NCBI GenBank assembly: GCA_013360195.1 | Contig: JABWCQ010000007.1 | Location: 1 to 64,000 of the forward strand | From: a bacterium | Lineage (GTDB): Bacteria; Electryoneota; RPQS01 | Direction: 5' to 3' | DNA length: 64,000 nt | Shown: positions 32,097 through 33,403 of the stretch, one piece after another | How the letters are laid out: every line of letters begins with the position of its first letter | Position numbering within the stretch: position 1 is the stretch's first letter | Position numbers and translations under genes: made by a program | The notes under the pieces: model-generated | Told to the model about the DNA's origin: nothing | The model's database searches: none | Seen by the model: only the letters and a program-made list of their open reading frames with translations

Positions 32097-32192
32097 GCCA
32101 AAACGCAGCATAGAGTGCCCGAGATTGCCATGTTATCAAGCGACCAACGCTTTTATTAACAAATATTTGAAGTTAAGTGCTAATAAAATCAA

Positions 32193-32220
32193 GAGGCCGC
32201 ACCCTTTTGGGTGCGGCCTC
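32193..32220 (-). terminator. Terminator of the Cys-rich repeat gene
   Basis: Perfect twelve-base-pair stem GAGGCCGCACCC / GGGTGCGGCCTC with a four-base loop, 22 bases after the stop codon; TTGATTTTATT follows on the minus strand. Confidence 0.8.
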
Positions 32221-32241
32221 CATAAACAGTACCGGTATTTC

Positions 32242-33318
32242 TTAGATACCCATGAAATTATTCGCACAGCCTTCGCCGCAGAAGTAAGTCTTCTGGCCGT
32301 CCATGACGACCGCAGGCGTGGCGTTGGTCACTTCAAACGAGTGTCCGGACATTTCGCAGGTCGCGATCTTCTTGCCGTTCTCAACTTTGACGTTCTTTTC
32401 ATTCGTCGCGAGCACGGCGGCTTCATGCGTAATGTTCTTCGCCATCGACGCCATCTTGTCCGAGCATTTTACGGCACACGCATCGTCCGCGAAGTAGTAG
32501 CGTGCATTACCAACCTGCTTGTACGGGGTCTTGTCATTCACGACAAACTTCTTGCCATCCGCAACAGCGTACATCATGCCATTCTCAACCTTGTAAACGT
32601 TGGCATTGAAGTAGCCCTTGTCACCGCAGGCATTCTTGGCGGCGGACGAAGCGCAAGTCATCGAGGCATTCGTCGCACCTTTGCTCATGCAGCAGGACGA
32701 CCCTGAAGAAGCCATGGAGGCACCCTTGGTCGCATCGCAAGAGCCGGCAGATGTCATCGAAGCATTCTTCGACGAGCTGCAGCTTGAGCTGCAACCGCTG
32801 CCGGACGTAAGGACGGCGCCCTTGGTTGCATCACAGCTGCCACTGGTCATTGCGGCATTGCTGGTTGAGGAGCACTTGGAAACATCGCAAGTGCCGGAAG
32901 CCTTCACAGCATTCGTGGTGCTGCAGGAAGAACCGCTCGCCATGGATGCATTCTTCGATGAACTGCAGGATGAGCTGCAGCCGCTTCCTGACGTGAGGAC
33001 AGCGCTCTTGGTCGCATCACAGCTGCCACTGGTCATCGCGGCATTGCTGGTCGAGGAGCACTTGGAAACGTCGCATGTGCCAGAGGCCTTCTGAACAGAA
33101 GCCTTGGAGGCATCACAGCTGGTCGCACATGCGGCCTTATCGCCGGTCGAGGTCAGGCTTGCATTGCATGCTGCCTGTTCAGTTGCGGATTTGTTTGACG
33201 CCTTGCTGGCCTTCTTTGACGAACAGGCGCTGTCACAAGCGTAGCTGTAGCCACCGGCCATTACCAGGGCCACCACGGCCATCGAGCCGAGAATAAGTCC
33301 AATCTTCTTCACATTCAT
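32242..33318 (-). CDS. Secreted Cys/Ser/Ala-rich repetitive protein with C-terminal YHS/TRASH-like metal-binding modules
   Basis: 358 residues. Signal peptide MNVKKIGLILGSMAVVALVM then AGGYSYACDS. Residues 30-230 are low-complexity and built from Cys, Ser, Ala, Thr, Lys and Asp (GTCDVSKCSSTSNAAM, GSCDATK, GSGCSSSCSSSKNASM), with a 62-residue unit present twice. I count 26 Cys in the whole protein. The C-terminus has two related modules. The last, ATCEMSGHSFEV..TPAVVMDGQKTYFCGEGC, has the spacing of a YHS/TRASH domain; the first (YYFADDACAVKC) is a degenerate copy. It is probably an exported metal-binding or metallochaperone-like protein; which metal is unknown. AGGAG precedes the ATG; a strong terminator follows. 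Confidence 0.75.
   Translation of the reverse strand: MNVKKIGLILGSMAVVALVMAGGYSYACDSACSSKKASKASNKSATEQAACNASLTSTGDKAACATSCDASKASVQKASGTCDVSKCSSTSNAAMTSGSCDATKSAVLTSGSGCSSSCSSSKNASMASGSSCSTTNAVKASGTCDVSKCSSTSNAAMTSGSCDATKGAVLTSGSGCSSSCSSSKNASMTSAGSCDATKGASMASSGSSCCMSKGATNASMTCASSAAKNACGDKGYFNANVYKVENGMMYAVADGKKFVVNDKTPYKQVGNARYYFADDACAVKCSDKMASMAKNITHEAAVLATNEKNVKVENGKKIATCEMSGHSFEVTNATPAVVMDGQKTYFCGEGCANNFMGI
32762..32905 (-). repeat. Tandem coding repeat, copy A
   Basis: 144-base conserved part of a 186-base (62-codon) unit inside the Cys-rich gene; copy B begins exactly 186 bases further on. Differences are mostly at third codon positions, so the repeat is under protein-level constraint or is an older duplication. 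Confidence 0.85.
32948..33091 (-). repeat. Tandem coding repeat, copy B
   Basis: Second copy of the 62-codon unit. A shorter, diverged third unit (GSCDATKGASM) follows copy A towards the C-terminus. Confidence 0.85.
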
Positions 33319-33379
33319 CTCCTGTGGTTTTTCCTCTGCGGATTTCTCGCAATCTACAAAAATTCCAGATAACTTTCAG

Positions 33380-33403
33380 CATCCGATCAAAGAAAATCGG
33401 ATG
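33380..33403. other. Eight-base-pair inverted repeat between divergent genes
   Basis: CATCCGAT (33380-33387) pairs with ATCGGATG (33396-33403) around an eight-base A-rich loop. It lies in the shared upstream region of the Cys-rich gene (minus) and the GNAT gene (plus), so it could be an operator or an mRNA leader hairpin. Confidence 0.45.

Follow-up and report, generated by a model that had tools for sequence, protein, structure and literature searches.

The window, i.e. the whole 64,000-nucleotide stretch of DNA analysed here, from an uncultured bacterium, encodes on its minus strand a protein of 358 residues, in which a putative signal peptide is followed by a long Cys-rich, low-complexity spacer and by two modules derived from the YHS domain. 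We favour, with slightly better than even confidence, the interpretation of a thiol-rich protein of the tandem-YHS type that is exported to the periplasm or the surface, binds metal there and acts as a soft-metal buffer, most likely for Cu(I). We infer that the protein is exported and binds metal, and likewise which metal it binds, its buffering and any hand-over from the spacer to a module. The features on which the argument is built are the following:

32242..33318, minus strand: the gene, 358 aa with 26 Cys, comprising the spacer and two YHS-derived modules (ORF listing, sequence, orthologues)
33238..33318, minus strand: putative signal peptide, residues 1-27 (read from the sequence)
32617..33237, minus strand: Cys/Ser/Ala low-complexity spacer, residues 28-234, with 21 Cys (composition, AlphaFold, substitution pattern)
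32905..33090, minus strand: repeat copy 1, residues 77-138 (repeat comparison)
32719..32904, minus strand: repeat copy 2, residues 139-200 (six Cys codons, all identical to those of copy 1)
32404..32616, minus strand: YHS-derived module 1, residues 235-305 (alignments, profile comparison)
32245..32403, minus strand: YHS-derived module 2, residues 306-358 (Pfam YHS at E 0.036, alignments, profile comparison)
33351..33379, minus strand: probable promoter, CTGAAA-17-TAGATT (hexamers and spacing shared with a same-genus homologue)
32192..32221, minus strand: intrinsic terminator, with a 12-13 bp GC-rich stem and a T-rich tail (inverted repeat, hairpins of orthologues)

The C-terminus is a diverged pair of YHS modules, and the decisive evidence came from profile comparison. 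The direct check against Pfam models, proposed in the first-pass annotation for its YHS/TRASH assignment, did not bear the assignment out: the window protein scored 14.5 bits (E 0.036) with the YHS model (PF04945), below the cut-off of 30.3 bits, and the TRASH models (PF24273, PF08394) left it unmatched at E up to 10. The kinship itself proved right. A profile made from the aligned C-termini of eight orthologues retrieved, from other parts of the phylum, exported proteins of the tandem-YHS type, which match PF04945 at E-values reaching 3.5e-20, and hhalign of this alignment against eleven of these same-phylum proteins gave 99.2% (E 2.3e-19) over both modules. Because proteins with such strong PF04945 scores stand at the other end of the profile-profile match, the window protein is a diverged tandem-YHS protein. 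The AlphaFold model of the C-terminus was mediocre (pLDDT 69); a Foldseek search with it returned nothing of weight (best E 2e-3, TM ~0.2), and sequence searches of the PDB gave weak matches only, to repeat hairpins of the choline-binding and toxin types, L24e and zinc fingers.

The ligand residues of the YHS domain are Asp/Cys, Cys, Cys and Cys (PMC4626032). The YHS-type Cys spacing claimed in the first-pass annotation is present in module 2, where C321, C347 and C351 occupy ligand positions 1, 3 and 4 of YHS/TRASH (PMC4626032) and position 2 is Ser, as in the C-P-V-S-G of the relatives; it does not extend to module 1, which lacks the early Cys/Asp ligand and possesses only a C-x3-C (C281, C285) that a few inserted residues have displaced. 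The alignment of orthologues contains 28 invariant columns, among them a single Cys, C321. The C-x3-C of module 2 is absent from four of the eight orthologues (G003, G007, G008, G009), and homologues without conserved Cys, which had been named as an argument against metal modules, thus exist in part. Some of the more distant tandem-YHS proteins (L058, L059, L060, L063) are also devoid of this pair; its loss is thus recurrent, and some lineages can dispense with the second site. The missing early ligand of module 1 and the missing C-x3-C of module 2 in half of the orthologues count against metal buffering as the best explanation; the decay of the YHS Cys as such fits equally well a core maintained for contacts and a core whose metal binding has been taken over by the spacer.

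At the other end of the protein, residues 1-27 read by eye as the signal peptide that had been proposed earlier, with a charged start, a hydrophobic core and S-Y-A, followed by Cys28. The pattern [S/T/V]-[Y/F]-A followed by Cys closes this region in all orthologues except that of G005. Judging from the sequence, cleavage by signal peptidase I fits better than a lipobox, and a lipoprotein is the less fitting, still conceivable alternative.

The spacer is a text of Ser, Ala, Cys, Thr, Lys and Gly, in which 21 of 207 residues (10.1%) are Cys, against a background of 1.0%, the average for the remaining long ORFs of the window, of which the richest reaches 3.0%. AlphaFold models it almost without structure (pLDDT ~30), and it is predicted to be disordered. 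Its 62-residue unit forms a tandem pair identical in 53 of 62 residues and 146 of 186 nt; the repeat was detected separately as a 151-nt direct repeat, 87% identical and 186 nt apart, and a tandem-repeat finder reported no repeat in the gene region. The 26 Cys and the two copies of the unit, both noted in the first-pass annotation, were confirmed in the sequence. In the seven orthologues whose spacer is wholly readable, its length is 33, 41, 53, 57, 120, 151 and 207 aa, the number of Cys is odd or even, with a minimum of two, and the Cys content is between 6.1 and 11.3% in each; the spacers of the seven genomes are not alignable over their full length. The repeat unit also differs by genome, being 62 aa long in the window protein, 22 aa in G001, and different again elsewhere. 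The G001 array (L017, on G001:C1) of a SAGACDPAMCSTMSKSASAKNA-like, Cys-containing 22-aa unit is interrupted by exactly 100 N, which most likely mark a gap in the scaffold where the repeat was left unresolved; a frameshift considered for this homologue was dropped, as the break is this run of N. The spacer of the G005 orthologue (L024:2571-3476) contains twice the motif C-T-x-A-E-x-A-A-C-x-A-A-G-x-x-C, possibly a short helix.

Such wide variation of length among close genomes, the exchange of one unit for another and the degenerate Cys in several orthologues would all suit a functionless linker, grown by slippage in front of a decaying YHS relic. We consider this very unlikely, as it is largely contradicted by the substitution pattern. 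Between the window protein and that of a same-genus species, dN/dS is ~0.12 over the first 97 codons (0.131/1.107), ~0.10 over the first 70 residues of the spacer (0.164/1.638) and ~0.10 in the C-terminus (0.162/1.675), and between repeat copies 1 and 2 it is ~0.04 (dN 0.026, dS 0.72, 50 codons), with six of six Cys kept; these are NG86 estimates from short alignments with dS near or above one, so that the exact ratios are rough, with a clear direction. In the aligned first 70 spacer residues, five of seven Cys are common to the window protein and its sister species. The spacer is hence translated and under purifying selection, and not a neutral linker or filler. The linker also leaves unexplained why the Cys density stays at 6-11% across unrelated repeat units, and why orthologues persist in eight of eleven family genomes, at a constant site wherever the contig shows it.

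These orthologues were found by a protein search of the eleven genomes at the level of the family (G000-G003, G005, G007-G009), and the three genomes without one include one that is 56% and one that is 80% complete. A scan of genome contigs with the single sequence revealed no relative, a scan with the alignment revealed three MAG loci, and viral contigs yielded no relative with either the single sequence or the alignment. The window gene is located between a GNAT gene and tRNA genes, adjoining translation genes, and its relatives are placed alike: G001, G007 and G008 have a divergent GNAT-like gene upstream, and G000, G001, G003, G005 and G008 a tRNA Ala-Gly-Cys-Leu-Val cluster downstream; the 19 kb examined around the orthologue of G002 contained no tRNA, and the contigs of G007 and G009 are short. 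Within the stretches read, no metal genes stand beside the window gene or its orthologues, which speaks against our preferred interpretation.

The first-pass annotation had also taken the flanking inverted repeats as a sign of regulation, a suggestion that was not sustained. The downstream one is the terminator, and wherever the 3' end of an orthologue is visible, its stop codon is followed by a terminator-like hairpin; the window gene is therefore probably transcribed alone. The upstream one (33380-33403, 8-bp arms) is absent from the same-genus homologue in G001, and its candidacy as an operator was dropped for want of this counterpart. From the sequence the gene appears to form a unit of its own behind a promoter of ordinary appearance, and nothing there shows metal control.

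The architecture, unfamiliar to the first-pass annotation, is not confined to the window protein. A 241-aa protein from another family (L055:7379-8101, family f4) opens with a signal-like segment, followed by ~95 Cys-rich residues and two stretches matching YHS at the Pfam level (E 1.5e-16), and thus shares with the window protein the order of signal peptide (read by eye), Cys-rich low-complexity spacer and two YHS modules. In L056, L058, L063 and L078, the modules come after Cys-rich stretches that are shorter. Since Cys-rich spacers and YHS modules are joined repeatedly in the phylum, their combination is no accident. In other relatives the C-terminal tail is rich in Cys (L059, L064, L053) or in His/Met (L057, L054), an alternation that looks as if metal ligands were interchangeable. 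A search of plasmids with the canonical tandem-YHS region retrieved mostly heavy-metal P-type ATPases, which is consistent with the YHS assignment and says little on exported forms. The window's genome also encodes a tandem-YHS-like paralogue (L061:6830-8634, on G000:C4), to which Pfam at E 0.01 assigned no family, directly after genes for an apparent ECF-type sigma factor and an anti-sigma factor; these could form a metal-responsive unit.

A metal function is supported, by gene neighbourhood, for the tandem-YHS class as a whole, through its linkage to CusA-type pumps, CopA and Csp1. In 39 genomes of the phylum, nine of 43 tandem-YHS places have, at a distance of up to 10 kb, a CusA-type pump scoring above the cut-off; they are distributed over seven genomes and represent seven independent loci, since two pairs among the nine share a locus. 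The number expected from pump number and genome size, in a model that ignores contig ends, is 0.49, and none of 200,000 simulations reached nine. This linkage speaks for the class and not directly for the window gene. A run of same-strand genes in G035 (L054:2231-11733, on G035:C1), likely to be a copper operon judging from its content, comprises CusA (TIGR00914, 1128 bits), a CusB-type adaptor bearing HMBD and an outer-membrane efflux protein, then a first tandem-YHS protein, a beta-propeller-like protein, a copper-storage protein of the Csp1 family and a second tandem-YHS protein. The Csp1-family protein was assigned by a Pfam DUF326 match above the cut-off and an NCBIfam match below it. In the window's own genome, a locus (L102:1087-13269, on G000:C10) contains CusA, a tandem-YHS protein whose tail is His-rich, a YHS-DUF2231 membrane protein, a probable kinase and response regulator, and a copper P-type ATPase that carries both YHS and HMBD. 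The linkage to CusA-type pumps and Csp1 across the phylum provides a concrete copper hypothesis for the whole tandem-YHS class, and the G035 run a context in which the class can be tested.

In three further loci (L103:2665-11757 on G000:C8, L060:5238-8416 and L058:5673-9025) a trio recurs, consisting of a small Cys-rich exported protein (no family match in the two scanned), a TonB-dependent receptor with a carboxypeptidase-regulatory domain (recognised by eye in L058) and a YHS protein. The trio of the window's genome is near CtaG/Cox11 and cytochrome oxidase subunit III. The recurring trio possibly represents an outer-membrane copper route.

The ligand, or the stress answered, might be other than copper, e.g. 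zinc, mercury, arsenic, silver, or reactive sulphur or oxygen species, which we regard as distinctly unlikely. TIGR00914 spans both CusA and CzcA, thiol-rich proteins bind many soft metals, and three genomes with an orthologue (G002, G007, G009) gave no copper-ATPase match at the limit used. In G035 and in the window's genome, however, tandem-YHS genes are accompanied by a Csp1-family protein, a copper P-type ATPase and an HMBD-bearing CusB, and the YHS domain tested in an adenylyl cyclase conferred specific activation by Cu2+, the other metals tried being inactive (PMC4626032).

In an envelope that oxidises thiols, the Cys of the spacer could be engaged in disulphides instead of binding metal, and this is the main rival to metal buffering. 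The protein would then be a structural or cross-linking component of the envelope, held by intra- or intermolecular disulphides, with the YHS fold kept for contacts; we judge it unlikely. It would account for an exported location, for many Cys in a Ser/Ala low-complexity text, and for a YHS core that keeps its invariant columns and loses its metal-type Cys, and cytochrome c oxidase genes in the window's genome make an oxidising envelope possible. It leaves unexplained the linkage of the wider family to metal efflux and the alternation of Cys with His/Met tails, and it sits poorly with spacers in which the number of Cys is odd or even and goes down to two.

Metal buffering therefore remains our preferred explanation, and by sequence the window protein is probably a soft-metal buffer or carrier outside the cytoplasm. 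After export to the periplasm or the surface, the disordered, Cys-studded spacer would serve as a flexible multi-site thiolate ligand, holding several soft-metal ions, probably Cu(I), and module 2 would contribute a defined site of three Cys or a face for docking. A bolder version, to which we attach only a low probability, pictures a secreted disordered thiol buffer selected for Cys density and not for sequence or length, expanded by species-specific repeats, in which the degenerate YHS module would dock the spacer to an efflux or delivery partner.

Among known systems, the window protein is closest to the exported tandem-YHS proteins (PF04945), with which it shares two consecutive modules after a signal peptide, the hydrophobic and glycine pattern and, in module 2, the positions of the ligand Cys. 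It differs from them in its score below the gathering threshold, in the lost early ligand and displaced Cys pair of module 1, and in a Cys-rich spacer far longer than in the relatives read. In the literature searched we found no function assigned to exported tandem-YHS proteins, and no paper joining the terms YHS domain, periplasmic and cysteine-rich, which is weak evidence as most subscription journals were outside the scope. TRASH domains have the Cys spacing in common with YHS, and the phylum relatives match both, whereas the window protein itself has no TRASH match. With Csp1/Csp3 (DUF326, TIGR04401) it shares a multitude of Cys, used in Csp for bulk copper, and the Csp1-family gene joins tandem-YHS genes in G035; Csp, however, is a folded four-helix bundle with the Cys inside, while the spacer is predicted to be disordered and without such helices, and the Csp models of Pfam and NCBIfam left the window protein unmatched at E up to 10. 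Metallothioneins are low-complexity, Cys-rich proteins (~30% Cys) with little structure in the absence of metal. The spacer resembles them in being low-complexity and Cys-rich; the window protein differs in being apparently exported, fused to YHS, larger and of lower Cys density (~10%), and no metallothionein family of Pfam or NCBIfam matched it at E up to 10. Its parts, YHS and Cys-rich low-complexity text, are thus known, and what is new is their combination, together with the unusual case of a disordered Cys-rich region whose Cys density is constant while its sequence and length change.
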